A DNA stretch of 64,000 bases, taken from Deferribacteraceae bacterium (GTDB lineage Bacteria; Chrysiogenota; Deferribacteres; Deferribacterales; Deferrivibrionaceae). The translations under genes were made by a program, and so were the position numbers. The stretch lies in NCBI GenBank assembly GCA_020054865.1, contig JAIHAR010000005.1, forward strand, positions 1-64,000, read 5' to 3'. This document shows, in pieces, positions 6,920 through 54,925 of this stretch. Position 1 is the stretch's first letter; every line of letters starts with the position of its first letter. The notes beneath the pieces are model-generated. The model did not search any database and was not told the origin of the DNA. It worked only from the letters and a program-made list of their open reading frames with translations.

Positions 6920-6966
6920 AATCCATTATAACATAAATTAGACCTTGGATTACAAATCAACATAAT

Positions 6967-9579: not shown

Positions 9580-9707
9580 AATTATTTTTAATTTATATCA
9601 AAACCTTTTTCAATTATTTTTTGAATAATTATCTAAACTTCTTGACAACATATCAGGGATATATTAAAAAGACAGTGTTTTGATATAACAAACCGGGAGA
9701 TATATAA

Positions 9708-11254: not shown

Positions 11255-11673
11255 ATAAGGATATAATATTAAAAACTACAACGAGAATAATAGTACCTTT
11301 CATATTGGTATTTTCCCTTTATGTTTTAGCCCATGGTGAAATTAGTCCAGGAGGTGGTTTCCAGGGTGGAGTGATTTTTGCGGCTGGTTTTATACTCTAT
11401 TCAATGGTTTTTGGTGTAGAAGAATTGTACAAAATCATAAGCAAAAAAGTAATAATTTTTCTAACTGCTCTTGGAGTATCCATTTACACAGGTGTTGGAT
11501 TTATTACAATGCTAAATGGCGGAAAATTTCTTGAGTATGCAAAAATTCCTGGTTTTGATATGAAATCTGGAAATGCTATGGGGCTTTTATTCATTGAAAC
11601 AGGTGTTTTTATAACTGTTTTTAGCGTAATGTTGCTACTTTACATAGAGGTTGCTAAAAAATATGATAATTGA
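11251..11673 (+). CDS. mrpB: Na+/H+ antiporter subunit B (MnhB domain)
   Basis: 140-residue four-helix membrane protein with the MnhB hallmark LAHGEISPGGGFQGGVIFAA. It starts at TTG with a 4-base overlap of the preceding gene and ends inside the start of mrpC. It is a core subunit of the Mrp complex. Confidence 0.93.
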   Translation: MNKDIILKTTTRIIVPFILVFSLYVLAHGEISPGGGFQGGVIFAAGFILYSMVFGVEELYKIISKKVIIFLTALGVSIYTGVGFITMLNGGKFLEYAKIPGFDMKSGNAMGLLFIETGVFITVFSVMLLLYIEVAKKYDN

Positions 11674-12043
11674 CTTTTTAATTTACAAATATAACTATCT
11701 TGCAACTATAATACTTATTCTAATAGGTCTTTATAGTGTCATTGTAAATGGGAATTTACTAAAAAAAGTAATCGGGCTTAATATTCTGTCAACTTCAGTA
11801 ATTTTGTTTTACATCAGCATATCAAAGGTTTCAGGTGGCTCAGCTCCCATTTATGCTGAAAACGTTGTAAGATATGATAATCCTCTCCCTCATGTTTTGA
11901 TGCTCACAGCAATTGTGGTAGGTGTGTCAATTACTGCAGTTGCATTATCGATTATAATTAAGATAGAAGAAACGTATGGTACCATTGAAGAAGATGAGAT
12001 TGTAGAAATTGACCAAAATGACGATATGGTGGATAACAAATGA
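11663..12043 (+). CDS. mrpC: Na+/H+ antiporter subunit C (MrpC, NuoK-like)
   Basis: Three-helix subunit homologous to NuoK, with GLYSVIVNGNLLKKVIGLNI and the MrpC-type LTAIVVGVSITAVALSIIIK. The acidic C-terminal tail is typical. I chose the ATG at 11663; an in-frame TTG lies four codons upstream. It overlaps mrpB by 11 bases and the next gene by 4. Confidence 0.92.
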   Translation: MIIDFLIYKYNYLATIILILIGLYSVIVNGNLLKKVIGLNILSTSVILFYISISKVSGGSAPIYAENVVRYDNPLPHVLMLTAIVVGVSITAVALSIIIKIEETYGTIEEDEIVEIDQNDDMVDNK

Positions 12044-13524
12044 ACCTTAAAATGAACCTGCCCGCTCTTGTGGTCGTTTTTCCTTTCTTTTCTGCCATGA
12101 TGATGGTAGCAATAGGTATTTTTAATAGAAAAGTTGTTCCTTATATATTCCAGATTACTGCTACAATAACGGCATATTTTGCATTTTCACTCCTTATAGA
12201 AGTATATACAAATGGACCGATAAGATATTATTTTGGCAATTGGATTCCACCAGTAGGAATTGAGTATTATGTAGATTATTTAAATATTCTTTTCGTTACT
12301 ATTATTGCTTCAATATTTTTTGTAATGAGCTTTTATTTCCCTTTGAGCGTAAGGAAGGAAATACCTGAATCAAAAAGTTATATTTTTTACTCTGTTACTA
12401 CCTTGTTCGCTTCAGGTTTGCTTGGAATTACCATTACTGGTGATATGTTTAATATTTATGTCTTCACTGAGATATCATCTATAACAGCTTATGCACTAAT
12501 AGCAATTGGCGGAAATAGAAGATCTTACAGGTCGAGCTTTAATTATCTTATACTTGGAACAATTGGTGCATCTTTTATTGTTCTTGGGATCGGATATTTA
12601 TATATGGCAACAGGCACTTTGAATCTTCTCGATATGCAGGAAAGACTCCAGCACGTTTACAATTCTAAAATAACAATTTCTGCTGCTGCAATAATAATTG
12701 TAGGTCTTAGTCTGAAAATGGCTCTTTTTCCACTGCATTCTTGGCTTCCTGGTGCATACGCCCATTCACCGTCAACTATAAGTGCTTTTATGTCAGCAAC
12801 AAGTACAAAGGTAATGGCTTACTTACTGATAAGATTTGTTTATACCATATTTACTCCAAATTTTGCTACCAAAATAATACCTATTACAGATATAGTTATG
12901 TATATTTCTCTAATTGCAATAATTGCAGGGTCTTTTTTGGCACTCGGGCAAAAAGATTTAAAGTATATGTTTGCATATTCATCAGTCGGACAAATTGGTT
13001 ATATTGTTTTTGGTGCAATGCTTATAAATGCAAATGGTTTGATTGGTTCTATCTATCATTTTTTATCGCATGCCATTGTTAAAGGTGGTTTATTCTTGGT
13101 TGCTGGTATAATATTTTACAACTTTACTAATACAAAAATTGAAATCACCAATGGGCTATTTAAAAAAATGCCATTTACTTCTATTGGATTTCTAATATTT
13201 GCTCTATCAATGATTGGAATACCTGCTACATCTGGATTCATCAGCAAATGGTATCTAGTAATGGGTGCAATCGAAACTGGCAATTGGATTGGAGTTACCG
13301 TTATATTGTTAAGCTCACTTCTTACTGCTATTTATTTCTGGAGAGTTGTTGACAGAATTTTTTTCAAAGCACCTGATGATGATGTCAAATTCAATGAGCC
13401 TATTTCTATGATATTACCAACTTATATTTTGGCTGGATGTAGCATTTACTTCGGGCTCTTCCCTCACCAGTTGGTAAATTATGCACAAAAAGCTGTTTTG
13501 TTATTAATGGAGACTATTAAATGA
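12040..13524 (+). CDS. mrpD: Na+/H+ antiporter subunit D, first copy (NuoN/MrpD-like)
   Basis: 494-residue polytopic protein with about 14 helices of the proton-translocating NuoL/M/N family. Conserved charged positions lie in segments such as VFTEISSITAYALIA (the helix 5 glutamate), GLSLKMALFPLHSWLPGAYA (the helix 7 lysine) and YSSVGQIGYI. It overlaps its neighbours by 4 bases on both sides. This is the first of three related large subunits in the operon. Confidence 0.9.
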   Translation: MNLKMNLPALVVVFPFFSAMMMVAIGIFNRKVVPYIFQITATITAYFAFSLLIEVYTNGPIRYYFGNWIPPVGIEYYVDYLNILFVTIIASIFFVMSFYFPLSVRKEIPESKSYIFYSVTTLFASGLLGITITGDMFNIYVFTEISSITAYALIAIGGNRRSYRSSFNYLILGTIGASFIVLGIGYLYMATGTLNLLDMQERLQHVYNSKITISAAAIIIVGLSLKMALFPLHSWLPGAYAHSPSTISAFMSATSTKVMAYLLIRFVYTIFTPNFATKIIPITDIVMYISLIAIIAGSFLALGQKDLKYMFAYSSVGQIGYIVFGAMLINANGLIGSIYHFLSHAIVKGGLFLVAGIIFYNFTNTKIEITNGLFKKMPFTSIGFLIFALSMIGIPATSGFISKWYLVMGAIETGNWIGVTVILLSSLLTAIYFWRVVDRIFFKAPDDDVKFNEPISMILPTYILAGCSIYFGLFPHQLVNYAQKAVLLLMETIK

Positions 13525-15005
13525 CAGAAACTGTATACTCCCTTCTACCTATTTATGCAGTGTTAATTCCACTAATTTTACCAATACCTATTTATTTATT
13601 CAGAAACTACCCTAATGGAAGAGAGTTTTTTAGCATTGCTGGATCACTAGCCACTTTTATCACTGTTTTCTTAATATACACAAAAGTTAAGACAGGAATA
13701 TCTTTAGAATATACACTTTTTGAGTTTTTACCGGGGTTAAGTCTGAAATTCAAAGTTGATGCATTTGGAACATACTTTGCACTGATGGCATCATTTTTAT
13801 GGTTTTTGACAACATTTTATTCTATTGGATATATGAGGGGGAACAAAGAAAAAAATCAAACGCGCTTTTTCTTATTCTTTTCTTTGTCAATGTTTGCAGC
13901 CATTAGCGCTGCATTTTCCGGCAACTTGCTTACAATTTATGTATTTTATGAAATAATTACATTTTCAACTTACCCCCTTGTTGCACACAAACAGACCAAA
14001 GAAGCAATCCAGGGTGCAAGAAGATATCTTTCTTATTTGCTCTTAACCTCAGTTTTGCTTTTTCTTCCGGCACTTGTATATACATATTATGCCGCAGGAA
14101 CACTTGACTTTACACTTGGCGGGATATTTGCATCAAAGGAGAATGTAAATAAATCTGTTTTAGGTTTAATGTTGCTATTTTTTGTGTTTGGCTCTGCAAA
14201 AGCTGCTGTTATGCCATTTCACCTCTGGCTTCCATCAGCAATGGTTGCACCTACACCTGTTAGCGCCCTTTTGCATGCAGTTGCAGTTGTTAAAACTGGT
14301 GTATTTGTAATCATAAGAGTATTTGTGTATATATACGGTTTAGATTTTCTCAAGACAATATCCACTTCTAACCTTGTAACAATATTTGCCGCATTTACGA
14401 TAATTGTAGCCTCAATGGTTGCTCTCAGACAAGACAATATTAAAGCAAGATTAGCCTATTCTACTATAAGTCAGTTGTCTTATATAGTTCTTTCAGTTTC
14501 ACTTTTAAGTATTACCGGAGCAATTGGTGCAATTTTTCATATTGTTGCACATGGTTTTGCCAAAATTACACTCTTTTTCTGGGCTGGTGCTGTGTACGTA
14601 GCTAATCATAAAACCAAAGTTAGTGAATTAAATGGAATCGCAAAACATATGCCTTACAGCATGGCTGCGTTTACTGTTGGAGCTTTATCAATGATTGGTT
14701 TTCCTCCCATGGCCGGACTAATCAGTAAATGGTTTATCGCAACAGGCGCAGTTGAAGGGAGCAAACCCTGGGTAATTGCTGTACTTGTGATAAGTGCACT
14801 TTTAAACGCAGGGTACTTTGTGCCAATATTTATAAATGCTTATCTTAAAAAGCCTGAGCCGGAACACAACCATTCTCATCTTCATGAAGCACCAAAACTT
14901 ATGTTGGTTCCGATGCTTATAACTGCAACACTAACTATTTTTATATTTTTCTACCCAGAGTTTTTTTTAAAGCTTGCAAAACTTGCTTTGGGAATTGGAG
15001 GATGA
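13521..15005 (+). CDS. Antiporter large subunit, second NuoL/M/N-like copy
   Basis: 494-residue proton-translocating membrane subunit. The helix 5 glutamate region reads VFYEIITFSTYPLVA. The helix 7 region is AKAAVMPFHLWLPSAMVAPTP, and KARLAYSTISQLSYIVL and HIVAHGFAKITLFFWAGA follow. A histidine-rich loop (EHNHSHLHEAP) precedes the last helices and might bind metal. It belongs to the same family as the 12040 gene but is clearly diverged from it, consistent with separate channels in one complex. Confidence 0.88.
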   Translation: MTETVYSLLPIYAVLIPLILPIPIYLFRNYPNGREFFSIAGSLATFITVFLIYTKVKTGISLEYTLFEFLPGLSLKFKVDAFGTYFALMASFLWFLTTFYSIGYMRGNKEKNQTRFFLFFSLSMFAAISAAFSGNLLTIYVFYEIITFSTYPLVAHKQTKEAIQGARRYLSYLLLTSVLLFLPALVYTYYAAGTLDFTLGGIFASKENVNKSVLGLMLLFFVFGSAKAAVMPFHLWLPSAMVAPTPVSALLHAVAVVKTGVFVIIRVFVYIYGLDFLKTISTSNLVTIFAAFTIIVASMVALRQDNIKARLAYSTISQLSYIVLSVSLLSITGAIGAIFHIVAHGFAKITLFFWAGAVYVANHKTKVSELNGIAKHMPYSMAAFTVGALSMIGFPPMAGLISKWFIATGAVEGSKPWVIAVLVISALLNAGYFVPIFINAYLKKPEPEHNHSHLHEAPKLMLVPMLITATLTIFIFFYPEFFLKLAKLALGIGG

Positions 15006-15006
15006 G

Positions 15007-15258
15007 TTGAATAAGAAGGAGTTTGACTTTTTTGACAAGAAAGAAAATATAAAAAAGCTTAAAATATGGTTTTATATACTGTTAATTATATTAGTCTTGT
15101 TAGATTTGGTTATTCACAAACACCCCCATTATGCATGGGAAAATTTATTTGGCTCTTATGCCATTTATGGTTTTTTATCATGTGTTGTAATAGTTATTAT
15201 ATCAAAACTACTTGGAAAACTGCTTCTACAAAAACCAGAGGATTATTATGATAGGTAA
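15007..15258 (+). CDS. Small two-helix membrane protein of the Mrp-like operon (83 aa)
   Basis: A lysine-rich cytoplasmic start (KKENIKKLKIW) is followed by two membrane helices (near residues 20-36 and 50-70) and a charged end, LLQKPEDYYDR. The TTG start lies 5 bases after GGAGG and overlaps nothing important. An ATG-type start inside the previous gene is less likely. Position between two NuoL-like genes suggests an accessory subunit or assembly factor of the antiporter. I recognise similar short ORFs in Mrp-like clusters but cannot assign a function. Confidence 0.75.
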   Translation: MNKKEFDFFDKKENIKKLKIWFYILLIILVLLDLVIHKHPHYAWENLFGSYAIYGFLSCVVIVIISKLLGKLLLQKPEDYYDR

Positions 15259-17029
15259 TTTTCCAGTTTTTTTTATTTTCTTTATAGGTGCACTAATATT
15301 ACTATTAACAAAGGGTAAATTACATAAATTTATTTTTATAACAATACCCGCTCTTGCTTTTTTTGCCTTAATCAACACCCCTGTAAACACTGAAATAGTT
15401 GGTTCTTTTTTAGGTATCGATTTAAAATTTATTTTTATTGACAAGTTAAGTAAAGTCTGGGGATATATATTTGCAATTATGGCTTTTTCTTCAGCAATTT
15501 TTGCTTATCATAATGATGATTATAAAGAAAATATATATGCCACACTTTATATAGGGAGCTCTTACGGTGTTGTTTTTGCTGGTAACCTCCTAACTCTTTT
15601 TATTTTCTGGGAACTTATGGCCATATTTTCCACAATGATAATTTTTGCCAGAAAAACAGACGCTTCTACAAAATCAGGATTCAGATATTTGCTGGTGCAT
15701 GCTTTAGGTGGTCAATTACTTTTTGCTGGGATGATTTTGTATTATTTTAAAACAGGAAATTTGGACTTTGGATATATCGGGTTACAAGACGTGGCTACTT
15801 TACTGATAATGCTTGGATTTGCTATAAATGCAGCAATACCTCCATTTTCAGCCTGGTTATCTGACTCATACCCGGAATCTACTGTAACAGGTACTGTTTT
15901 TCTAAGTGCATATACCAGTAAAACTGCCGTTTACGTTCTTGCAAGAAGTTTCCCCGGTGAAGAAATCCTTCTTTACGCAGGCGCCATTATGACTGTTTAC
16001 GGAATCATTTATGCTATTTTAGAAAATGATATGCGTCGAGTCCTGTCATACAGTATTATAAACCAGGTTGGATTTATGATTGCAGGTGTTGGCCTTGGAA
16101 CTCAAATGGCTATTAACGGTGCTGCTGCTCATGCTTTTGCACATATACTTTATAAAGCACTTTTAATGATGGGAGCCGGTGCTGTCTTATATAGGACAGG
16201 GATTAGTAAAACTTCAAGACTTGGTGGGCTCTATAAAACCATGCCTTACACGCTTTTATTTAGCTGTATTGGAGCAGCTGCAATATCCGCATTTCCGCTT
16301 ACAAGTGGCTTTACCTCAAAGTCTCTTATTATAGCTGCATCCGCTGCTGAGCATAAAACTTTTGTTTACCATATACTTCTTTTAGCTTCTGCAGGTGTTT
16401 TTCTACATGCAGGTATAAAATTTCCATATTTTGTATTTTTCCAGAAAGATTCAGGATTAAGACCAAAAGAGGCTCCTAAAAACATGCTTATTGCAATGGG
16501 GTTTGTGAGCTTTTTATGTATCCTTCTTGGTGTATATCCGCAGGTATTATATAATATTTTACCTTATGAAGTGGACTTTAAACCCTATACCGCTTCTCAC
16601 GTATTACTCCAGTTGCAAATACTAATGTTTTCTGCTGCTGCATTCTTCTTTATGTTGCCAATGCTTAAGAGGACAGAAACGATAACGCTTGATACTGACT
16701 GGTTTTACAGAAAAGGTGGAGCCTTATTTATAAGTTTTGTAGACAATGTAATCATTAAGATCGGCTCCAAAATAAAAGATTTACTTTTTACCAAAATACC
16801 TGATAAATTTTCATACATCTTTTCAAATCCCGACGGGTATATTAAGATCATTTATAATATTGTATATTACAAAGTTTTTGAAGATAATCCTGAAAAATTA
16901 AAAGAAAACAAACTTCTTCTCAAAGACATAGGCAGAGTAAAGACAGATACTCATATTGGAATATCAATGATATGGGTAACATTATTTATGGCATTTTACT
17001 TATTAATTTATTACTTTTATGCAGGATAG
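15248..17029 (+). CDS. Antiporter large subunit, third NuoL/MrpA-like copy (593 aa)
   Basis: Largest of the three NuoL/M/N-type subunits. It has the helix 5 region FIFWELMAIFSTMIIFAR, INAAIPPFSAWLSDSYPEST in the helix 7/8 region, and RRVLSYSIINQVGFMIAG. A C-terminal extension (about residues 480-593) ends in a single membrane helix after an amphipathic stretch, recalling the lateral-helix tail of NuoL. The ATG at 15248 overlaps the small gene by 11 bases. It is the last gene of the operon; a 17030-17117 gap follows. Confidence 0.88.
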   Translation: MIGNFPVFFIFFIGALILLLTKGKLHKFIFITIPALAFFALINTPVNTEIVGSFLGIDLKFIFIDKLSKVWGYIFAIMAFSSAIFAYHNDDYKENIYATLYIGSSYGVVFAGNLLTLFIFWELMAIFSTMIIFARKTDASTKSGFRYLLVHALGGQLLFAGMILYYFKTGNLDFGYIGLQDVATLLIMLGFAINAAIPPFSAWLSDSYPESTVTGTVFLSAYTSKTAVYVLARSFPGEEILLYAGAIMTVYGIIYAILENDMRRVLSYSIINQVGFMIAGVGLGTQMAINGAAAHAFAHILYKALLMMGAGAVLYRTGISKTSRLGGLYKTMPYTLLFSCIGAAAISAFPLTSGFTSKSLIIAASAAEHKTFVYHILLLASAGVFLHAGIKFPYFVFFQKDSGLRPKEAPKNMLIAMGFVSFLCILLGVYPQVLYNILPYEVDFKPYTASHVLLQLQILMFSAAAFFFMLPMLKRTETITLDTDWFYRKGGALFISFVDNVIIKIGSKIKDLLFTKIPDKFSYIFSNPDGYIKIIYNIVYYKVFEDNPEKLKENKLLLKDIGRVKTDTHIGISMIWVTLFMAFYLLIYYFYAG

Positions 17030-44075: not shown

Positions 44076-45428
44076 TTATCCCTTAATTTTTATGCCGTAT
44101 TTTTTTATTTTGGCATTAAGTGTTACTCTTGATATTCCAAGAGCATCAGCCGTTTTTGACAAATGAAAATTATTTGATTTCAGAGCATTTAAAATCATCT
44201 CTTTTTCAAGGCTTTCCACCGCTTCATTAATATTATTGAAATCTGTTTCTCTGCCGTAACCAGGATCATTTTCTGTCAAGTTTAATTTGATATGCTCAGG
44301 CTCTATTGATTTGCCATCAGCAAGCATAACAGCCGTGTTGATAACATTCTTAAATTCTCTGACATTTCCCGGCCATGTATATGATGATAAAATATCTATG
44401 ACCTTCTTGTTGAGACAGGTTATACTCTTTTTATACTCCTTTGCAAAAATATTGATAAAATATTTTGCAAGCTGCTCTATATCTTCCACCCTATCCCTTA
44501 ATGCAGGCAGTTTTATAGTGACTCCACTTACCCTGAAATACAAATCTTGCCTGAATAAATTTTCATCCATAAGTTCGCTTATCTTTTTATTAGTTGCTGC
44601 CACAAGCCTTACATCAAGCTTTATCTTTTTTGTCCCCCCCAGATGCTCTATTTCACTGGTTTCAAGGACTCTTAGAAGCTTGGACTGTAGGCCTTTTGAA
44701 ATTTCACCTATCTCATCAAGAAATATTGTCCCGCCTTGAGCAAGCTCAAACTTTCCCGGTTTTGATGCAGTTGCACCGCTGAATGCACCTTTTTCATAAC
44801 CAAAAAGTTCACTCTCAAGCAAATCTCTTGGGATCGCAGCACAATTAATCGGCACAAATGCTCCCCTTCTTCCGCTATACTTATGAATCATATTTGCTAT
44901 TAATTCCTTGCCAGTACCGCTTTCCCCGACAATCAAAACAGGTGTCTTGGTAGGGGATACATTTGCTACAATTTTCAATACTTCCCTTATATCTTTGGAA
45001 ATTCCTATAAATCCTTTTGAAGTAACATCTTCAACTTTTACATACTCATTTCCGCATATCTCAAATCTTTTATTTTTCTTATACTTTTCAATATATTCTA
45101 TCAAATCCTCAATATTTACAGGCTTTGTTAAAAAATCTTTTGCTCCAAGCCTGATGGATTCCAAAACGGTATCACTTGTCCCAAATGCAGTTATCATAAT
45201 TACTGGAATATCAGGAAAATCTTTCTTGATTCTTTCCAATAAATGTAGACCATTTGAGTCACCAAGCCGTATGTCTAAGAATATAAGGGATATATCTGGT
45301 GTATTGTGCAATATTTCATATGCCAATCTTGGGGTATCTGCTGTCTCAACTAAATACCTGTCTGCCAAAGACCTTTTTATACTATACCCTAAAGCCTCAT
45401 CATCATCTATCAATAAAATTTTATCCAT
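44076..45428 (-). CDS. Sigma-54-dependent response regulator (NtrC family)
   Basis: 450-residue activator. The receiver (1-120) has LLIDDDEALG, LIFLDIRLGDSNG and DFLTKPVNIE. The AAA+ sigma-54 interaction domain (about 140-370) has Walker A VGESGTGKELIA, the sigma-54-contacting GAFSGA loop in YEKGAFSGATASK and GGTIFLDEIGEI. A Fis-type HTH ends the protein (LSKTADALGISRVTLNAKIKK). It is the final gene of the operon led by arrA, 1 base after its kinase. The likely target is the sigma-54 promoter of arrA, so the operon controls itself. Confidence 0.95.
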   Translation of the reverse strand: MDKILLIDDDEALGYSIKRSLADRYLVETADTPRLAYEILHNTPDISLIFLDIRLGDSNGLHLLERIKKDFPDIPVIMITAFGTSDTVLESIRLGAKDFLTKPVNIEDLIEYIEKYKKNKRFEICGNEYVKVEDVTSKGFIGISKDIREVLKIVANVSPTKTPVLIVGESGTGKELIANMIHKYSGRRGAFVPINCAAIPRDLLESELFGYEKGAFSGATASKPGKFELAQGGTIFLDEIGEISKGLQSKLLRVLETSEIEHLGGTKKIKLDVRLVAATNKKISELMDENLFRQDLYFRVSGVTIKLPALRDRVEDIEQLAKYFINIFAKEYKKSITCLNKKVIDILSSYTWPGNVREFKNVINTAVMLADGKSIEPEHIKLNLTENDPGYGRETDFNNINEAVESLEKEMILNALKSNNFHLSKTADALGISRVTLNAKIKKYGIKIKG

Positions 45429-45429
45429 A

Positions 45430-46800
45430 CTACTCCTTTGTAAGCCTGATTATAAAGGTAGTCCCATATTCATCAGAAGAAACATTTATCTGCCCATTTA
45501 GGGCATTTATTATGGACTCAATATAAAAGAGTCCAAGCCCTGTCCCTGTCTTCTTTGTAGTATAAAACGGTAAAAATATTTTATCAATATTCTCTTCATC
45601 TATCCCAAATCCATTATCACGAAAACCGACTAAAACATAGCTGCCTTGGTCTTCAAAAACAATCTCTACCCTTGTAGCTGCAGCTTCAAAACTGTTATTT
45701 ATAAGATTGATAAGTATTTCTATTACCTTTTCCCCATCAGTAAATATAGTGTCACTTTTTATGTTGTTAATAAATATTAACTCAAGTTTATCAGAGAAGT
45801 TAATATAAATATAGTCTTCCAAGACCTTTTGTATTTCGCTTACTTTTACATCACTCTTTTTAATACTTATTGGCTTTGCAATTTCTAAAAAATCATTAAC
45901 AATTTTGACAATCTTATTAGTTTCACGAATAAGATATTCGGTATCTTTTGAATATCTTTCATCCAGCTCTTTTGCAAGAGTTTGGGCGAGTAATAGCACT
46001 GTCATAGCCGGATTTTTCAACTCATGGGCAAGCCCTGATGACATCATACCGATTGAAGCCATCTTAGCATTTGCCATAATCTTCTTTTCCTGCTCCATAT
46101 TTTTATCAATTGCATCAGCAAGTCTTTTTGAAATATCGGTCAAATTTTTTGCAATATCTCTAACCTCTCTCGATGAATACCAGGGCAATTTAATATCTTC
46201 AGTCAGATTAGATAAATCCATCTTTTGGACATACTCATTTAACGCTTGCATAGGTGTTATAAGTAAATTTGTAAAAAATACTACAACAATAAGAAGAAAA
46301 ATAAACGTAAATATTTCTGTAACACCAATCTTTAAACTATCTTTTATTGCCACTTCAACAATATAGTCAGGATTTATCTCATAAATAATATATCCCACGA
46401 CACCTTGATTGTCGCCAATTGTTATAGGAAATTTTATAAAATTAGCTTTATCAGCTTTTTCAGGATATTGTTTAACAGCAAGAGCATCTGTAATATAATT
46501 CATATCTTTATCAAATAGATAAACATTTTTTAAGTAATCAGATGATTTTTGAATAGACTCCACAATTGTAAACATTGTGTAGATATCTTTATAAATAATT
46601 GCTTCACCAAGCTTTATATTTAATATGGATACGTTTTGCTTTATGGAATTATTTACCGTTTCGGTTAAAAACCTTTTGCTGTAACTATAAGATAGCGTTA
46701 TTGTAACTAATAAAGTAAAAAAAGACGCAAAGATGGTAAGAAGAATTACCCTCGTTCTAAAGCTATTTGGTATTAATAATTTTATAATTTTCGACTTCAC
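45430..46800 (-). CDS. Membrane sensor histidine kinase of the arr operon
   Basis: 456 residues. Two membrane helices (about 17-37 and 180-200) enclose a periplasmic sensor domain, followed by a HAMP-like linker. The H-box is SSGLAHELKNPAMTVLLLAQ. ATPase motifs are NLINNSFEAA, FRDNGFGIDEENI and KKTGTGLGLFYIES. The start is GTG at 46800, inside the end of the binding-protein gene (38-base overlap). Together with the PhnD-like protein and the sigma-54 activator it resembles the AioX-AioS-AioR arsenite-sensing module. Confidence 0.92.
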   Translation of the reverse strand: MKSKIIKLLIPNSFRTRVILLTIFASFFTLLVTITLSYSYSKRFLTETVNNSIKQNVSILNIKLGEAIIYKDIYTMFTIVESIQKSSDYLKNVYLFDKDMNYITDALAVKQYPEKADKANFIKFPITIGDNQGVVGYIIYEINPDYIVEVAIKDSLKIGVTEIFTFIFLLIVVVFFTNLLITPMQALNEYVQKMDLSNLTEDIKLPWYSSREVRDIAKNLTDISKRLADAIDKNMEQEKKIMANAKMASIGMMSSGLAHELKNPAMTVLLLAQTLAKELDERYSKDTEYLIRETNKIVKIVNDFLEIAKPISIKKSDVKVSEIQKVLEDYIYINFSDKLELIFINNIKSDTIFTDGEKVIEILINLINNSFEAAATRVEIVFEDQGSYVLVGFRDNGFGIDEENIDKIFLPFYTTKKTGTGLGLFYIESIINALNGQINVSSDEYGTTFIIRLTKE

Positions 46801-47617
46801 GGCTAATCTTTATCACATCTGAATAATCGTAACCAAGGCCATCTTCAAATCTGTCAATATTTAACTGCCTTAAAATCTTTCTTCCCTTTTCATCTTTGTC
46901 CATATTAATCAAAATACTTTTTATCCTATTTAATAATCTTACATTTATTTTTTTTGAAGCAATAATAGGAGGGATAGGAAAATCAGGGGATTTAAATATC
47001 ACTTTTGTATTATTAATAACTTCAGGAGAGACTATTTTTTCATGTTCATAAATAAGACTATCCACCGGTGCAATATCCACCACACCTTTACTTACCAAAT
47101 ATATTGATTTATCGTGATTACCTGTAAAATAAATATTTGAAAAATACTTTTCTATATCAATATCGTTATTTTTAAAAAAGTATAAAGGATACAAAGTGCC
47201 ACTAAATGAAAGCTTATCTGTAAAGGCAATCGTCTTACCTTTTAATGATTTTAAGTCTTTATATTCAAAATCTTTTTTAACAATAAAATAGGACTGATAT
47301 TTTGACTTACCGTTTACCACAGGAATTGCCAAAAGCACGTATGAATCATCCTTCAAAAATGCGATTGCCCCAGAGCACACACTTGCGATGTCAACCTCCG
47401 CATTCTCAATCAACTCATTCATTTCTGAATAATTTTTTTTGCTTACAAACTCAACATTTTGCCCAAGTTTTTTTGAAATATACTCGTTAAGTCTCTCATA
47501 CAAATAAACGGTATTTCCTGCAGAAATAACTGAGGAAACACCAAACTTTATGGTTTCAGCAAATGAAAATGTAACTATAAACAAACTAAATATTAGTATG
47601 TAGCTAAATTTCTTCAT
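46763..47617 (-). CDS. PhnD/AioX-like periplasmic binding protein
   Basis: 284-residue secreted protein. The signal peptide is MKKFSYILIFSLFIVTFSFA. The mature part has the PhnD-type features KFGVSSVISAGNTVYLYERL, ASVCSGAIAFLKDDS and LKGKTIAFTDKLSFSGTLYP. There are no transporter permease or ATPase genes near it, so it is a sensor accessory rather than an importer component. AioX, a PhnD-like protein that binds arsenite for the kinase AioS, is the closest functional model. The Cys in ASVCSGA could be an As(III) ligand. It overlaps the HMA gene's stop by 14 bases. Confidence 0.85.
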   Translation of the reverse strand: MKKFSYILIFSLFIVTFSFAETIKFGVSSVISAGNTVYLYERLNEYISKKLGQNVEFVSKKNYSEMNELIENAEVDIASVCSGAIAFLKDDSYVLLAIPVVNGKSKYQSYFIVKKDFEYKDLKSLKGKTIAFTDKLSFSGTLYPLYFFKNNDIDIEKYFSNIYFTGNHDKSIYLVSKGVVDIAPVDSLIYEHEKIVSPEVINNTKVIFKSPDFPIPPIIASKKINVRLLNRIKSILINMDKDEKGRKILRQLNIDRFEDGLGYDYSDVIKISREVENYKIINTK

Positions 47618-47858
47618 ACCTGCTCAAAGTAAATTCTCTTTTTTCCTGCAAGGAGACATCAATAAGTGCCCTCTTCAAAATTTCTTTACCGAAGTCATCT
47701 TCTGCTTCCATACTAAACATACGGGATTTAATGTCAAAGTCTATATTTTTGACACCCTGCAACCCGGCAAGATGCTGCACTATGGCATCGGGACACCCCA
47801 TTCATAAAAATCCACCCTTTATCCCCATACCATCTACTTCAAACAGCATTTTTTTCAT
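47604..47858 (-). CDS. Candidate selenoprotein: heavy-metal-associated (HMA) domain with in-frame UGA (UxxC)
   Basis: 84 residues if UGA (47802-47804) is read as selenocysteine at position 19. Before it the frame encodes a first beta strand and loop, MKKMLFEVDGMGIKGGFL. After it come MGCPDAIVQHLAGLQGVKNI and a two-strand/helix end. The result is the complete beta-alpha-beta-beta-alpha-beta order of HMA (MerP/CopZ/Atx1) domains. The U-M-G-C motif falls exactly before helix 1, where such proteins have CxxC. The ATG overlaps the arrD stop (ATGA) and its own stop overlaps the next gene, so it is a coupled member of the arr operon. An alternative is re-initiation at the ATG right after the UGA, giving a 65-residue protein that lacks strand 1. 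Metal or arsenic/selenium handling is inferred. Confidence 0.7.
47771..47789 (-). promoter_or_regulatory. Candidate bacterial SECIS hairpin
   Basis: In the mRNA, GAUGC (bases 13-17 after the UGA) pairs with GCAUC (27-31). Inside, CA pairs with UG around a UAG apical loop, with a two-base CA bulge. A lower CCC/GGG pairing (10-12 with 37-39) can extend it. The loop lies about 20 bases after the UGA and contains G, within the 16-37 base range described for bacterial SECIS elements. Confidence 0.55.
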
Positions 47859-48445
47859 TTTATTCTCTCAACAAAAAGCTTTAACATTTCTCCAACTGTT
47901 TTATAGAACTCAGTTTCAGCTTTTTCGATTATATCTTGAGCTAATTTATCTGCAAATGGCGTAAAGTAATTGTTTACAAATGTATCAAGCAGCTCTTTAT
48001 TCTCCTGAACATCTGCCTCAGTTTGAATTTTTACAAGCATAAAATGGATGAACTCAAGCTCAATAGCAATATGGTCAGGAACTGTTTTCTGATCTTCAGA
48101 TACCTCTACTCCAGCTTTTAGATATATTTTTTCAACCTCCCTGGTTGTAACCCCATTTATCAATCGTTCACTTTCCAAATATACAGAACCATAGGGATAT
48201 GCCAACTTTTTGAATGGTCCAAAAAACAAAGCTGCATGATCGACTCTCAAATTTTCAAATGTTTCGTCATAAAACGAATTGCGTAACCTCTTAAAAAACT
48301 CGTTAAATTCAGGGCAATATGTTTTTACAATATTTTCATATTCATTAAAAAATTCTTCGTTGCCATCAGCAAAGACTTCTGAAGGCTCATAAAACAAAAC
48401 AGACAATAAATGTGACGCTTCCGTCAGGCAATCAATATCTTTCAT
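47855..48445 (-). CDS. arrD: TorD-family chaperone of the arsenate reductase
   Basis: 196-residue all-helical chaperone that helps insert the molybdenum cofactor and hold back the Tat substrate. The family signature is present: FFGPFKKLAYPYGSVYLE (the YxSxYL-type turn) and TVPDHIAIELEFIHFMLVKI. It lies 67 bases after arrB, beyond a strong intercistronic hairpin, and overlaps the HMA gene by 4 bases. It is a normal member of arr operons. Confidence 0.88.
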   Translation of the reverse strand: MKDIDCLTEASHLLSVLFYEPSEVFADGNEEFFNEYENIVKTYCPEFNEFFKRLRNSFYDETFENLRVDHAALFFGPFKKLAYPYGSVYLESERLINGVTTREVEKIYLKAGVEVSEDQKTVPDHIAIELEFIHFMLVKIQTEADVQENKELLDTFVNNYFTPFADKLAQDIIEKAETEFYKTVGEMLKLFVERIK

Positions 48446-48465
48446 TATCTCTCCTTAATATCAAA

Positions 48466-48495
48466 ATTTCTCCGGCAGCAAGCCGCCGGAGAAAT
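48466..48495 (-). other. Strong intercistronic hairpin between arrB and arrD
   Basis: Perfect 11-bp arms (ATTTCTCCGGC / GCCGGAGAAAT) enclose an 8-base loop. On the transcript strand only four T follow (TTTTGATA), so it is at best a partial terminator. An RNA-stability barrier that favours arrAB over the downstream genes is plausible. Confidence 0.8.
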
Positions 48496-48512
48496 AATAT
48501 ATAACTTTTTTA

Positions 48513-49265
48513 TTAAATTTTAAAGTTGTTTATGTAATAAACATTAGGTTCAGTACCTGCTTCCTCTTTAAGCCTGTAAGCCTTATGTTTCTTAAGAAGC
48601 TTTGATACTTCACTATTGCTGTCCTGCAAATCTCCAAATACTCTTGCTCCAGATGGACATGATACCACACAATAAGGTAGCTCACCATTTTGAGTTCTAT
48701 GATCGCAGAATATACATTTTTCAACAACACCAGGTTTTCTTACAGCTTCGTAGTCGGGGTGTTTGTAATCAGTTTTGTATGGTGGAGTTGCAGTTCTTTT
48801 GGCAATTTCTGCGCCACTGGCTGCACCAGCAACTACCTTCGTAGTATCAGCATAATTTGCAAAAACTTTTTCCCCTTCTACATTAAAACTAATTACACTA
48901 TATTGAGCATCTTTTTCTTCATCAAGATCCCACACACTGTATGGACAAGCATCCTGGCAAGAGCGACAACCTATACAACGTTCATCATTATGCATTGTTA
49001 CATTATTTTTTGTTTTGAACATTGCTTTTGGAGTCACAGGACAAGCCTCAACACAAGCTGCTTTTGAACAGTGATTACACAATACAGGATATGGGGTATA
49101 TTTTACATTTGGAAAGTTCCCCTCCATTTTGATATAAAAGTCAGCCCAGTTATAGCTTTGACCATTTTTTCTTTCCTGTGTGTTATTTTCTGTCTTACAG
49201 GCAATTCCACATGCCCCACATCCAACACATTTTTTTAAGTCTATCACCATTGCATATTTAGGCAT
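48513..49265 (-). CDS. arrB: Respiratory arsenate reductase Fe-S subunit
   Basis: 250-residue electron-transfer subunit with four [4Fe-4S] motifs: CVGCGACGIACKTEN, CNHCSKAACVEACP, CIGCRSCQDACP and CIFCDHRTQNGELPYC followed by CPSGA. It has no signal sequence and is carried out with ArrA by the Tat system. The start has GGGGGTAAA upstream. It lies 11 bases after arrA. No arrC (NrfD-like quinol oxidase) gene follows, so electrons must arrive through another quinol oxidase. Confidence 0.93.
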   Translation of the reverse strand: MPKYAMVIDLKKCVGCGACGIACKTENNTQERKNGQSYNWADFYIKMEGNFPNVKYTPYPVLCNHCSKAACVEACPVTPKAMFKTKNNVTMHNDERCIGCRSCQDACPYSVWDLDEEKDAQYSVISFNVEGEKVFANYADTTKVVAGAASGAEIAKRTATPPYKTDYKHPDYEAVRKPGVVEKCIFCDHRTQNGELPYCVVSCPSGARVFGDLQDSNSEVSKLLKKHKAYRLKEEAGTEPNVYYINNFKI

Positions 49266-49276
49266 ATTTTACCCCC

Positions 49277-51817
49277 TTATAGTTTCTCAATTTTTACGCC
49301 AACAAAACCACCATTTCTAGCGGTAGAGCCGGAGATACGATCATACTCAGCCGGCATGAGCTCATTGTTATTAAACCCTTTTGTAGGAGCAACACCGAAT
49401 TTACCTGTGGCAACCTTTCCATATGCCCAGTGACCCTGCCCATACATTTTTGTAACTGTTCCTGGTCTGATTCCTGGGTAAAGGTTTGCCTTTGTCACAA
49501 AACTCCCTGTTACAGAAGTTACCCTTATAGTATCTCCATCTTTAATACCTAATTTCTTTGCATCTTCAGGATTGATTCTCAAAGCATCATCCCATGGGAC
49601 ATCAGCCATATCACACTTCCTGAACTCCTGATACCATGGGGTATTTTGAGAACGCCCTTCTCTATTAAGCCTTGATTTGTGATCAAAGAACATAAATGGG
49701 TACTCTTCTTTACTTCCGTACCTTAAAGGCCTTTCATAGTGAGGTACAAATGCAAGTTCCCCTCGAGCTTCATATTTGGTAACTTCCATTACTTTGTCTA
49801 CATCTACATTATGTTTTTTTGCATGCTCTGTTAAAGCTTTCTCAAGAGTCTTGCTATAAAATTCAAATTTGTGCGTTTCAGTTTTGAATTTACCCCAATG
49901 ACTCTTATATTTATAAGGCCCTGTATTCCATACGCCTTTTTCAGTAAACTCTTTCCAGCCGTTTATCTTGTCCCCATAAAGTTCCTTTTTTCCGTCCCAC
50001 AATGGAGCTGTGTAATATTTTACTGCGTAAAGAGCAAATTCTTTCTCATTTGTTGGAGATTTTCCAGTCTCTGGATCTTTAAACTCATTGTTGTAGTAGT
50101 TTAAAAGATTTGGAAATCCTCTCTCAGCAAGCTTCTTAGCTATCAAGTATGGGATCTCAGTCTCATCTATCTTTACATCAAAAATTGGCTCTACTACTGG
50201 CTGAACAAGACAAACTTGGGCATTTGCATTACCAATTGTCTTTAAATATCCCCATTTTTCAAATGTTGTAATTGCACAAGGCAGCACTATATCAGCAAAC
50301 ATTGTCATTTCTGAAGCATGCGTAGTCAGATGTACAAAAAACAGTTCAGGATTGGAAAATGCCTTTTCCCATCTTTGCCCTTCTGTACCTGAAAAAGCAA
50401 AATTGTTCATATAGCCTATACACATTTTTATATCATATGGATCTTTTTTCAACATTGCAGTAGCAACATTGTTTGTAACAACCGCGCTACCTGGCTTCCC
50501 TTTATTTAATGCAGGAAACTCAAGATAACCTCTCTGGTCAATCTTTTTAAATTTTTTCTTTGCTATCTCATCCTGGTAAGGTTTAAGATCAGGCATATGA
50601 TTGGCCACTTGTTTCATTTTTTGCAGCACACCACCTTCCACATCTACCGAACCAAGAAGGCCATTTAATGCATGAACTGCCATAGCAGAATATGTACCTC
50701 TAATCTGCATAGCAGCACCAGGTCCCATCCACACACATACCTTTGGGGCTTTTGCTGCCATTTCTCTTGCAGTCTTATAAATTTGTGCTGCAGGGATACC
50801 ACATTCTTTTTCAGCCCACTCAGGTGTTTTATCTTTAAGCTCAATATTCCACCATTTTACAAGACCGTAAGTATGCTTTTCTTCAAAGGTAGATTCATCA
50901 ACTGCCTGATTTTTTACAAATCTGTTTTTACCATCTTTGAAATCTCCAACAAACTCTTTGCTCCATAATCCTTCAGTCAACAACACATGAGCCAGTGCTG
51001 CGGCAAGAGCTCCGTCAGTTCCTGGAAGAATTGGCAGCCAGTTATGCGCCTTTGCTGCAGCAGGTCCCATTTTAGGATCAACAACTGTCACAATTCCTCT
51101 GTCAAGAACTTCATGAAAACGCTTAATCATTAATGCAACTTGTCTGTTTGAAACAAGAGGATCAAGCCCCCATAAAAGTAAATAGTCAGTATTTGCAGTG
51201 TCATAATCTCTGTAATCCCAATACCCTTGAGTAAAAAATGCACCTGATTTTTCTGCTTCTGCACAAAGAGCACTATGAGAAATATTATTAGGAGAGCCAT
51301 AGATTTTGGTCATAGCATCATAAATTACATCTCTCATGTAGGTATATCTTCCTCTATTGAGCATGTATTTATGAGCTTCACCATTTTTTCTAAGCTCCAT
51401 CATTTTATCCGCAATAGTATTTAAAGCTTCATCCCAGCTAATCGGAACAAACTTAGGGTCAATCCCTCTACCTTTCTGGGGATTAGTTCTTTTCATTGGT
51501 GTTACAACCCTGTCAGGGTCATATAGCTGCTGTAAACCAATATGTGCTCTTGGGCAGCATGTTCCCAGATTGCTTTTACTGTGAGGATTACCTCTGACCT
51601 TTACAGCCCTTCCATCCTGAACAAAGACTTGGATTGGATCCCAAGTAGTACAGCCCTGGCATGTTGTGGATACCCATTTACCCGGCTTTTCTCCAACATC
51701 ACCCATCTTTTTAGCTTCAGCTGGTTTAAGTGCATTAGTTTTTGCACCACAGCCGACAGCTAAAACGGCACCCGCAGCTGCCGTTGCCTTAATAAAATCT
51801 CTTCTTTTGATATGCAT
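49277..51817 (-). CDS. arrA: Respiratory arsenate reductase catalytic subunit (molybdopterin)
   Basis: 846-residue periplasmic arsenate reductase. The Tat motif KRRDFIKATAAAGAVLAVGC starts the protein. ArrA-typical stretches are RTNPQKGRGIDPKFVPISWD, SHSALCAEAEKSG (the Cys that binds Mo), ELKDKTPEWAEKECGI and, at the end, DRISGSTARNGGFVGVKIEK. The first cluster motif reads CQGCTTWD and later CCPR. The third cluster ligand, usually Cys (CxxCxxxC), is Asp here (GAT codon), which could alter the FS0 cluster potential. Good SD (AAGGAGGAA) and a sigma-54 promoter precede it. Assignment to Arr rather than Arx or Psr rests on overall similarity as I recall it. Confidence 0.9.
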   Translation of the reverse strand: MHIKRRDFIKATAAAGAVLAVGCGAKTNALKPAEAKKMGDVGEKPGKWVSTTCQGCTTWDPIQVFVQDGRAVKVRGNPHSKSNLGTCCPRAHIGLQQLYDPDRVVTPMKRTNPQKGRGIDPKFVPISWDEALNTIADKMMELRKNGEAHKYMLNRGRYTYMRDVIYDAMTKIYGSPNNISHSALCAEAEKSGAFFTQGYWDYRDYDTANTDYLLLWGLDPLVSNRQVALMIKRFHEVLDRGIVTVVDPKMGPAAAKAHNWLPILPGTDGALAAALAHVLLTEGLWSKEFVGDFKDGKNRFVKNQAVDESTFEEKHTYGLVKWWNIELKDKTPEWAEKECGIPAAQIYKTAREMAAKAPKVCVWMGPGAAMQIRGTYSAMAVHALNGLLGSVDVEGGVLQKMKQVANHMPDLKPYQDEIAKKKFKKIDQRGYLEFPALNKGKPGSAVVTNNVATAMLKKDPYDIKMCIGYMNNFAFSGTEGQRWEKAFSNPELFFVHLTTHASEMTMFADIVLPCAITTFEKWGYLKTIGNANAQVCLVQPVVEPIFDVKIDETEIPYLIAKKLAERGFPNLLNYYNNEFKDPETGKSPTNEKEFALYAVKYYTAPLWDGKKELYGDKINGWKEFTEKGVWNTGPYKYKSHWGKFKTETHKFEFYSKTLEKALTEHAKKHNVDVDKVMEVTKYEARGELAFVPHYERPLRYGSKEEYPFMFFDHKSRLNREGRSQNTPWYQEFRKCDMADVPWDDALRINPEDAKKLGIKDGDTIRVTSVTGSFVTKANLYPGIRPGTVTKMYGQGHWAYGKVATGKFGVAPTKGFNNNELMPAEYDRISGSTARNGGFVGVKIEKL

Positions 51818-51856
51818 ACATATTCCTCCTTACAAAGAGTAGTCAGCACGTATTGA

Positions 51857-51871
51857 GCAATTAGTATGCCA
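51857..51871 (-). promoter_or_regulatory. Sigma-54 promoter of the arr operon
   Basis: The minus strand reads TGGCAT-ACTAA-TTGC, matching TGGCAC-N5-TTGC with GG and GC in the required phase. The -12 lies about 40 bases before the arrA ATG. The operon's last gene encodes a sigma-54 activator. Confidence 0.85.
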
Positions 51872-51941
51872 TTTTTTCTGTATTTTTTATTTCTTGTAAG
51901 TGCTGATATTAGCTTTAATAACATAAACAACTATCTCTTAT

Positions 51942-51964
51942 CTTTGTAAACAAACTTTACAAAG
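51942..51964. promoter_or_regulatory. Perfect palindrome upstream of the arr promoter (candidate enhancer site)
   Basis: CTTTGTAAA and TTTACAAAG are 9-base arms around CAAAC. The centre is about 85 bases upstream of the sigma-54 promoter, the usual distance for an NtrC-family activator site. A half-site TTACAAAG recurs at 51830-51837. A second inverted pair, TCAGCAC (51843-51849) and GTGCTGA (51900-51906), straddles the promoter. Confidence 0.6.
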
Positions 51965-52088
51965 CACATAAAATATCTTTACATTTTATGAGGATTTGCT
52001 GAATCTGATTAATAATTCACCTTTTCTTCTTGTGAGAATTTCATTGAAGCTATAATATTTAAATAATCATAAATTAGGGGTGGAAAAA

Positions 52089-53501
52089 ATGAATCATCCA
52101 AAGATTATACAAGGTGGAATGGGGATTGGTGTTTCAAACTGGAAACTGGCAAGAGCAGTTTCCATTTCAGGCGGTTTAGGTGTTGTTTCATCTACAGCTC
52201 TTGATACATTGATGGTCAGAAGACTTTTTCATAAAGATGAAGATACAAAAAGAGCCCTTCTCAAATTTCCTTTAAAGAATATTTCAGAGAAAATATTGGA
52301 CAATTATTATGGAGAAAAAAACAACAATAAAGGTTATCCGCAACTTCCTTTCTTTTCGGTTGATATTAGAGATGAACTTATTGCTCTAACAATTGCCGCA
52401 AACTTTGTAGAAGTGTACCTTGCCAAAGAAGGGCATAGCAATCCTGTCGGAATTAATCTGCTGGAAAAAGTTCAGATGCCTACCCTTTACTCCCTTTATG
52501 GTGCAATGCTGGCTGGAGTTGATTATGTAATAATGGGAGCCGGTATCCCAAGAGAAATTCCCGGGATTTTAGATAAGCTTTCAGCTGGTCATGATGCAGA
52601 GCTAAACCTTTATGTTTCCGGAGCTCAAAGCGGAGAATCATATAAAATGCATTTCAGCCCTAAAAAGTTTATGGGCAAGCAATTAAACCTAAAACGCCCT
52701 TACTTCTTTCCTATTGTATCTTCAAATACACTTGCCACAACACTCATGAAAAAATCGAATGGCAAAATTGACGGACTTATAATTGAAAATTATTCCGCCG
52801 GAGGGCATAATGCTCCCCCAAGAGTAAAAGGGGTGTTTCACGATAACGGCTCCCCGGTTTATGGCGACAAAGACATTGTAAATCTTGATAAAATCAAGGA
52901 ATTAGACATACCTTTTTTCCTCGCGGGCAGTTTTGTTACTCCTGAAATTATTAGTAAAACGATAGATGAAGCTGGCGCATCTGGAATACAGGTAGGAACT
53001 ATATTTGCACTTACCAGTGAATCAGGCTTTGAAGAAAGTATCAAACTGGAAATAGTAAATAAAATAAAAAACAATACGATTAATATTTTCACAGACCCTA
53101 TGGCCTCACCAACTGGTTTCCCTTTTAAAGTTGCCAGCATCAAAGGGACGTTATCCGAACAGGATATCTACGACAATAGGCCGAGAGTCTGCAACTTAAG
53201 ATATCTGGCAGAGCTTTACAAGGATGAAAATGGAAATATAGGTTACAGATGCCCTGCTGAACCAATAAATGAATATTTAAAGAAAGGTGGAAAAATTGAA
53301 GAAACTGTTGGAAGAAAATGTCTTTGCAACGCTCTCCTTGCAAATATCGGATATGGAAATACCTATAAAAATGGCTACAAGGAGCCATATCTTATCACAT
53401 TAGGGGATAGCGTAAGTTTGATCTCTCACTTCTTACCAGATGAAGGATTGCCCTCAGCCAAAAATGTTACAATACAATTAAAAAGCTATATTGAAAATTA
53501 A
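52089..53501 (+). CDS. Nitronate monooxygenase / NPD-type FMN protein
   Basis: 470-residue TIM-barrel flavoprotein of the 2-nitropropane dioxygenase/FabK-like family. The N-terminus has PKIIQGGMGIGVSNWKLARA and GGLGVVSSTALD. FMN and active-site segments are MGAGIPREIPGIL, LIIENYSAGGHNAPPR and AGASGIQVGTIFALTSESGF. The C-terminal extension has a cysteine-bearing part, GRKCLCNALLANIGYG. The longer subtype resembles those near anaerobic gene clusters, with substrate unknown. It diverges from arrA, sharing 52-kb intergenic DNA, and ends at a good terminator. ATG at 52089 is preferred over GTG at 52080 because AGGGGTGG precedes it. Confidence 0.82.
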   Translation: MNHPKIIQGGMGIGVSNWKLARAVSISGGLGVVSSTALDTLMVRRLFHKDEDTKRALLKFPLKNISEKILDNYYGEKNNNKGYPQLPFFSVDIRDELIALTIAANFVEVYLAKEGHSNPVGINLLEKVQMPTLYSLYGAMLAGVDYVIMGAGIPREIPGILDKLSAGHDAELNLYVSGAQSGESYKMHFSPKKFMGKQLNLKRPYFFPIVSSNTLATTLMKKSNGKIDGLIIENYSAGGHNAPPRVKGVFHDNGSPVYGDKDIVNLDKIKELDIPFFLAGSFVTPEIISKTIDEAGASGIQVGTIFALTSESGFEESIKLEIVNKIKNNTINIFTDPMASPTGFPFKVASIKGTLSEQDIYDNRPRVCNLRYLAELYKDENGNIGYRCPAEPINEYLKKGGKIEETVGRKCLCNALLANIGYGNTYKNGYKEPYLITLGDSVSLISHFLPDEGLPSAKNVTIQLKSYIEN

Positions 53502-53519
53502 CCTTACAATAAGTCATTT

Positions 53520-53546
53520 AGGGGTCTACATTTTATTTAGACCCCT
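53520..53546. terminator. Bidirectional rho-independent terminator
   Basis: The stem AGGGGTCTA / TAGACCCCT encloses a 9-base A/T loop. It follows the nitronate monooxygenase stop by about 18 bases and also faces the end of the thioredoxin-like gene on the other strand. The T-run is short (TTTAATT). Confidence 0.8.
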
Positions 53547-53554
53547 TTAATTGT

Positions 53555-53633
53555 TTAATACTCAAAACAGTCTGGACAAATCTTTTTACCGTCAGTAACT
53601 CTGACACTACCCAAAAAAAGGGGGTTAACCCAT
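53555..53633 (-). pseudogene. Possible orphan zinc-ribbon tail
   Basis: The minus-strand frame overlapping the end of the thioredoxin-like gene reads NPLFLGSVRVTDGKKICPDC and then FEY before a stop. CPDC and the VxDGKKxC pattern resemble the last turn of a zinc-ribbon domain. No adequate start codon precedes it. It is either the remnant of a lost gene or chance. Confidence 0.3.
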
Positions 53634-53870
53634 ATACTGATTTAAAATCTCTTTTACCTGCTCAATGTTTGGCAAAGGTTTCCCTTCGTGCACAACAACA
53701 TCATCTACCACAAGGCCTGGAGTAAACATAACATATTTAGTTATCTCAGACATCTCTTTAACATACTCAACAGAAGCATCTTCCAGACCTAATTGTTCAA
53801 CGGCTGCTAATGTTGTGTTGTATAAAATTTCACAATTTCTGCAGCCTGTTCCTAAAACTTTTATTCTCAT
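53625..53870 (-). CDS. Thioredoxin-like redox-active disulfide protein (small)
   Basis: 81-residue protein with a TIGR00412-type fold: VLGTGCRNCEILYNTTLAAV at the start (CxxC), then ITKYVMFTPGLVVDDVVVHE with the cis-Pro segment. It lacks a signal peptide. It lies three genes from a PF03773-type permease, a common pairing with this thioredoxin type and with ArsP. It could reduce metal- or arsenic-bound thiols. Confidence 0.88.
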   Translation of the reverse strand: MRIKVLGTGCRNCEILYNTTLAAVEQLGLEDASVEYVKEMSEITKYVMFTPGLVVDDVVVHEGKPLPNIEQVKEILNQYMG

Positions 53871-53944
53871 TCTACACCTCTCATTTTTATTTTTGTGGAA
53901 TCATAAAAATATATCTAAAAAAATAAGTTAAATTTAAAAAAACA

Positions 53945-54925
53945 TTAACCACAAAGTATACCCTTTTCTACACACTCATCAACTTCCAACTGCAAAGTAA
54001 CATGATTTATACCATATTCTAACAATTTTTCCTCAACCTTTTTTCGTATTTTTCCCGCATCGCTAAGCATCATGTCCTCAAGCTCGGCATGCGCTTCAAA
54101 AAATATATCTTTTTCTCCCACAGACCAGATATGAATGTGATGCACATTTTTAAGTCCATCTATCTGCTCGACAATATTCTTAATCTCTTCAATTGATATA
54201 TCCACGGGTGTACCTTCCAATAAAATATGTACAGATTTTTTCAATATTTTAAAACTTTCAATTAGTACATACACACCGATTATTATTGTCAGTACCGGGT
54301 CAATCCAGTAAATTTTAAAGAAAATTATACCAAGTGCGCCCAGTATAACCGCCACAGAAGATATAGCATCCGAAAGCATATGCAAATAAGCAGATTTAAT
54401 ATTCATATTTTCATGACTTCCAGCCTCAAGAAAATATATACTGAGTAAATTACCTACAAGACCGATTATGGCAATAGTAAGCATTGTAGAGCCCAAAATA
54501 GGTTCCGGATAATAAAATTTCTTAAAAGCTTCGAAAAAAAGGAATACAGATATACCCACAAGTACGGCTGAATTTAAAAGGGCAGCCAAAATTTCAGCCC
54601 TTTTAAGTCCAAATGTATGTTTTAAAGAATTTTCTTTCTGGCCCAATTTTAGAGCAATATAACTAATAATTACCGCAATTGCATCACTAAAATTATGTAA
54701 TGCATCGGATATTAATGATAAACTTCCGGAAATTATCCCACCAATAATCTCTGCAAAAGTAATACCAAAATTTAGCAAAATAACCCAGAAAAGTTTTTTG
54801 CCGGAAACCTCACTAACATCAATATGGTTATGGTGATGATGGCCGTTACATTCGTGACCATGCTCATGGTTATGAATATGATGGTCGTAGCTATGCCCAT
54901 TTATCTTTTTGATTTTATTACCCAT
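53945..54925 (-). CDS. Cation diffusion facilitator (Zn/Cd-type metal exporter)
   Basis: 326-residue six-helix metal/proton antiporter. The N-terminus is very His-rich (SYDHHIHNHEHGHECNGHHH), likely a metal sensor. Transport-site residues are in ISDALHNFSDAIAV (HxxxD) and HMLSDAISSVAV (HxxxD), consistent with zinc specificity. The C-terminal cytoplasmic domain has VHHIHIWSVGEKDIFFEAHA. It lies 4 bases after the permease gene at 54930, with which it is probably co-transcribed. Confidence 0.92.
   Translation of the reverse strand: MGNKIKKINGHSYDHHIHNHEHGHECNGHHHHNHIDVSEVSGKKLFWVILLNFGITFAEIIGGIISGSLSLISDALHNFSDAIAVIISYIALKLGQKENSLKHTFGLKRAEILAALLNSAVLVGISVFLFFEAFKKFYYPEPILGSTMLTIAIIGLVGNLLSIYFLEAGSHENMNIKSAYLHMLSDAISSVAVILGALGIIFFKIYWIDPVLTIIIGVYVLIESFKILKKSVHILLEGTPVDISIEEIKNIVEQIDGLKNVHHIHIWSVGEKDIFFEAHAELEDMMLSDAGKIRKKVEEKLLEYGINHVTLQLEVDECVEKGILCG

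Follow-up and report, generated by a model that had tools for sequence, protein, structure and literature searches.

A probable selenoprotein gene of the HMA fold within an arsenate-respiration locus of the Deferribacterales

The window, a 64,000-nucleotide stretch of DNA from a Deferribacteraceae bacterium, contains a short gene with an in-frame UGA that very probably encodes a genuine selenoprotein with a heavy-metal-associated (HMA) fold, a judgement drawn from sequence comparison and structural modelling that does not extend to the ligand. An earlier note on this DNA had proposed that a UxxC selenoprotein motif here replaces the CxxC of HMA proteins. Cys-containing homologues, a putative SECIS hairpin, purifying selection, a tRNA-Sec, selD and the modelled fold all speak for that proposal. 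The sequence evidence is strong that this is a real selenoprotein family, of a known kind but not yet listed.

The UGA-containing gene and its homologues

The gene occupies 47604–47858 on the minus strand. Its ATG (47858–47856) shares 4 nt with the TGA stop of an arrD-like gene (47855–48445), codon 19 is a TGA (47802–47804, minus strand) predicted to be read as selenocysteine, and the frame continues for 65 more codons to a TAG at 47606–47604, with the 3′ end overlapping the next gene (46763–47617) by 14 nt. These coordinates are the ones that the earlier note had assigned to the frame. The read-through product of 84 residues, MKKMLFEVDGMGIKGGFLUMGCPDAIVQHLAGLQGVKNIDFDIKSRMFSMEAEDDFGKEILKRALIDVSLQEKREFTLSRYEEI, carries the motif U19-M-G-C22. 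A scan for frames with a start codon, at least 12 codons, a TGA and at least 50 further codons, lying outside other long open reading frames, returned exactly one in the 64 kb, which is this gene. Ordinary gene-calling software truncates it at the UGA "stop".

The gene is present in 10 of the 51 genomes of the phylum. The earlier note had suggested looking for Cys or U at position 19 in homologues from other arr operons; across the phylum, both occur among the homologues. TGA is found in the five close homologues, namely the genome of the window, its congeners G012 and G013, and G010 and G011 of another family; a Cys codon is found in the five distant ones, all from a single genus (g8) of a third family, where Cys22 is kept and the frame runs unbroken from an upstream start. 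The UGA-bearing genes amount to only four independent sequences, distributed over two Deferribacterales families, the G012 copy being identical to that of the window. These homologues show 60–84% identity (60–67% for the genes of G010 and G011), and no further stop occurs in any of them; one of the five TGA-bearing genomes is a single 2.36-Mb contig. The U/C column, Cys22, G10, M11, G12, F48 and F76 are invariant in the ten-member alignment. That five genomes (four distinct sequences) share a TGA at this codon and five more have Cys there confirms at the sequence level that the read-through frame exceeds chance.

A domain-wide sample of 290 genomes revealed no family member outside the Deferribacterales, only ordinary HMA domains. 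Scans of genome contigs with back-translated patterns, which are short and hence limiting, gave nothing at first and then one already-known Deferribacterales Cys form, and a plasmid search produced no match. An apparent second HMA gene with a TGA, in G024, proved to end in an ordinary stop.

Decoding of the UGA

Before the UGA, 10 of the 12 degenerate codons with a conserved amino acid differ silently, and over residues 9–18 pN is 0–0.04 against a pS of 0.6–1.1. By these substitution patterns the pre-UGA codons are under purifying selection, and their silent evolution implies that this stretch is translated into protein.

A predicted bacterial SECIS hairpin is located at 47752–47775 (minus strand), with a 9-bp stem and a 6-nt loop, CGGGUU, placed 35 nt after the UGA (−10.6 kcal/mol). 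Its sequence is CAUCUUGC-CGGGUU-GCAGGRUG, with a G second in the loop. The four distinct genes have stems of 8–10 bp, the same loop at the same 35 nt, and energies of −9.2 to −11.2 kcal/mol. The rules for such elements specify a stem of 4–16 bp, a loop of 3–9 nt with G in its first two positions, a loop 16–37 nt after the UGA, and an energy of at most −7.5 kcal/mol (PMC13188914), and the hairpin satisfies all of them in 4/4 distinct genes; the background in the window is 22 of 2472 UGAs on both strands (0.9%) satisfying the model at −7.5 kcal/mol. The SECIS codons, 29–34, are identical across the four genes in six of six cases versus 11 of 34 comparable codons elsewhere (Fisher p = 0.003). No two-sided compensatory change was found in the stem, where 7/8 pairs never vary; because the pairs hardly vary, covariation argues neither for nor against the element. 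In one species an alternative fold is lower in energy than the hairpin, and the region downstream of the UGA, taken as a whole, does not fold unusually well compared with shuffles (z −0.6 to −1.8). The evidence for a SECIS element is its position, its loop and the frozen codons, and not whole-stretch folding energy. An Rfam scan of the whole window returned tRNAs only.

The earlier note had named selA, selB, selC and selD as the genes to look for. A tRNA-Sec (selC; 60.4 bits versus a cut-off of 47; ARAGORN anticodon tca) and selD (contig C63, 26337–27248) were found in the genome of the window, and its selD carries an in-frame UGA, as does that of 10/10 Deferribacterales tested. Neither selA nor selB was found in the deposited assembly, a bin that is 87.8% complete; the earlier note had listed such an absence as speaking against a selenoprotein. 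Among 12 other genomes tested, selA is present in 11 and selB in 11, and the two are adjacent in both congeners and in the remaining Deferribacterales examined. Contig C31 of the window's genome is syntenic with G012 through the neighbour gene of selB and ends approximately 100–200 nt short of the selB end; because it ends at the place expected from this synteny, the missing pair is taken as a probable assembly gap.

Other ways of reading the UGA account for the data less well. It could be a true stop, leaving an 18-codon leader and then a 65-residue protein whose ATG follows at once (TGAATG); about 10 nt before this ATG lies an AAGG(N)GG sequence, a possible ribosome site. The pre-UGA codons evolve silently, however, including the Gly-Gly codons of this supposed site, and good ribosome sites (AGAGGTG, AAGGGG) are located at the upstream starts in three species. 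The earlier note had considered that homologues might normally start after the UGA; the Cys homologues instead read through from the upstream start and share the GMG motif as well as the first strand. The short form, moreover, would be devoid of strand 1 of the AlphaFold model. We therefore consider termination very unlikely. The chance that the TGA is a nonsense mutation or a sequencing error in a Cys gene, leaving a pseudogene, appears negligible: the codon is one base from TGC or TGT and the window derives from a fragmented assembly, but the same TGA recurs in five genomes assembled independently of one another, none of these genes shows any other lesion, and purifying selection is seen on both sides of it. 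Just as improbable is a UGA read as Trp, or read through without selenocysteine, for which no supporting point was found; the adjoining arrD terminates with TGA, no homologue has Trp at the site, and a tRNA-Sec and a UGA-containing selD are present. If the UGA is decoded as selenocysteine, SelB and Sec-tRNA(Sec) would bind the hairpin after it and insert the residue at codon 19.

The arr locus and the link to arsenic

All genes of the locus lie on the minus strand. The catalytic subunit of respiratory arsenate reductase, arrA (49277–51817), matches NF041714 over its full length with 1157.9 bits, below the model's cut-off of 1600, which no ArrA match in the phylum attains, and PDB ArrA (6cz7) with 1009.7 bits. 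The iron-sulfur subunit, arrB (48513–49265), has NF041715 as its best match (243.7 bits; cut-off 450), and arrD (47855–48445) encodes a TorD/DmsD-like chaperone (PF02613, 87.2 bits; TorD/DmsD models). On the other side of the selenoprotein gene are found arrX (46763–47617), a periplasmic oxyanion sensor with ArrX 6x6b as its best PDB match (8.7e-35) and with conserved AioX-type pocket residues, taken for comparison from those named in PMC5908839; arrS (45430–46800), a sensor histidine kinase (PF00512/PF02518); and arrR (44076–45428), a sigma-54 response regulator (PF00072/PF00158/PF02954). The context of an arsenate-respiration operon described earlier holds, with ArrA, ArrB, the TorD-like chaperone and ArrX all present.

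Three further observations concern the window itself. The arrX-arrS-arrR set at 44076–47617 places these genes in the Deferribacterota, contrary to the 2018 statement that arrXSR is absent from Deferribacteres (PMC5908839). Judged from translations only, the segment 40032–42213 encodes an ArsR-type regulator fused to an arsenate-reductase-like phosphatase domain, together with a second arsenate-reductase-like protein and an Acr3-like transporter. The segment 53625–56099, again from its translations only, encodes a small CxxC thioredoxin-like protein beside a cation-diffusion transporter and an ArsP-like permease.

Because the selenoprotein gene overlaps both arrD and arrX, co-translation with the two is likely, and in this lineage the protein would be produced during arsenate respiration. 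A special form of the selenoprotein reading would give the protein a dedicated role, carrying arsenic or regulating arsenate respiration; it draws on these overlaps of start and stop and on G013, where the gene adjoins arrX-S-R even without arrABD. In the G013 locus (6398–15405), a tetrathionate-reductase-like enzyme, a small periplasmic protein and a rhodanese replace arrABD, with the selenoprotein gene, ArrX (88% identical), kinase and regulator retained; Ttr, porin-like and rhodanese genes have been described in Deferrivibrio metallireducens (PMC11896075). Against such a dedicated role stands the distribution across the phylum, with arrA in 12 of 51 genomes, the selenoprotein gene in 10, and both in 2, compared with a chance expectation of 2.4; 10 of the 12 arrA-bearing genomes are without the gene and 8 of the 10 gene-bearing genomes are without arrA. 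The neighbourhoods point the same way: uvrB and a penicillin-binding-protein-like gene flank the selenoprotein gene in G010 and G011, and transporters are close to it in the Cys-containing genomes. We regard the dedicated role as unlikely.

Comparison of the window with G012 reveals 91–100% nucleotide identity in the block around arr (44076–54925), with 100% for the selenoprotein gene, against 77–88% DNA identity for most flanking genes outside it and 69% protein identity for SelD. These values indicate a recent exchange of the arsenic island between the two species, and the two selenoprotein genes are therefore counted as a single observation. As the gene does not track arr and has unrelated neighbourhoods, the selenoprotein would either predate the arr link or be independent of it. 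The arsenic metallochaperone put forward in the earlier note is thus unsupported as a general role, since co-occurrence with arrA is at chance level and the operons of the relatives are unrelated. A narrower proposal, that in this genus the free-standing HMA selenoprotein serves as an arsenite carrier or an arsenic-sensing part, with Sec19-Cys22 as the site for As(III) and with recruitment from an older family that had a different ligand, is also doubtful.

Fold, possible function and known relatives

In HMA proteins the metal is held by a CxxC motif where helix 1 begins. The AlphaFold model built from the ten-sequence alignment has a pLDDT of 91.5 and the order β-α-β-β-α-β, with the metal motif preceding helix 1. 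Fold searches of the PDB gave 16 matches with E ≤ 0.001, all of them HMA domains (MerP, Cu-ATPase domains, CopZ, Atx1, CopP and the CCS chaperone), and the family profile matches Cu-ATPase HMA domains and MerP at the sequence level. The window protein scores 16.3 bits with the Pfam HMA model PF00403, under its cut-off of 24.8, and weak matches to this model occur in 6/10 family members. The motif GMG, six residues and [U/C]xxC is found in 10/10 members, none of which has the canonical GMxCxxC, and the distant HMA matches show canonical spacing. The protein is, according to the model, an HMA protein by fold that forms a separate subfamily by sequence.

In the predicted product, an 84-residue protein of β-α-β-β-α-β HMA fold, Sec19 and Cys22 would pair as selenol and thiol where helix 1 begins. 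This pair may hold a soft metal or metalloid, such as Cu(I), Hg(II) or As(III), or cycle as a selenenylsulfide redox pair, and the protein would act in the cytosol, having no apparent signal peptide. The odds lean slightly towards a soft metal or metalloid of some kind being bound; arsenic seems improbable as the main ligand. A thiol/selenol oxidoreductase that carries no metal, a variant of the selenoprotein reading, is a tenable if less probable function: a redox function is assumed for most UxxC selenoproteins (PMC13188914), but the fold here is that of HMA proteins and not of thioredoxin. A role other than metal binding or thiol redox is quite unlikely.

The 2026 inventory of prokaryotic selenoproteins (PMC13188914) lists 119 families. 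Among them are NF041115, an HMA-like protein with UxxU, and a UxxC-bearing E1-E2 ATPase, so HMA-type selenoproteins are known as a kind. The present family is not recognisable in that 119-family table, no NCBIfam selenoprotein model other than NF041115 matches the window protein, and the Deferribacter and Deferrivibrio genome papers searched contain no mention of selenoproteins. The earlier note's view that such a protein had not been described consequently stands for the family and falls for the kind. The work adds a selenoprotein family missed by gene callers to the 119 prokaryotic families, and the arr operon of one genus gains an extra gene. The family also represents a natural Sec-for-Cys swap in an HMA metal motif, and since Cys relatives from the same order are available for comparison, what selenium contributes to a site for metals or metalloids can now be tested.

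The locus resembles the ArrX-ArrS-ArrR and AioX-AioS-AioR systems in that a sensor with an AioX-type pocket, a kinase and a sigma-54 regulator follow the selenoprotein gene; we know of no HMA selenoprotein in either module. Among selenoproteins, NF041115 is likewise a small HMA-like protein with selenocysteine in its metal motif, but that motif is UxxU rather than UxxC, and the window protein reaches 17.1 bits, far below the cut-off of 95. The E1-E2 ATPase shares UxxC in a metal-handling protein and is set apart, by its description, as a membrane ATPase versus a free-standing protein of 84 residues. The PF00403 proteins (MerP, CopZ, Atx1 and the HMA domains of Cu/Zn ATPases) have in common with this family the fold, the [U/C]xxC at the start of helix 1, the preceding GM and the pattern of strand 2. 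The window protein differs from them in having seven residues, not one, between the Met of "GM" and the motif, in selenocysteine in place of the first Cys, and in its score below the Pfam cut-off.
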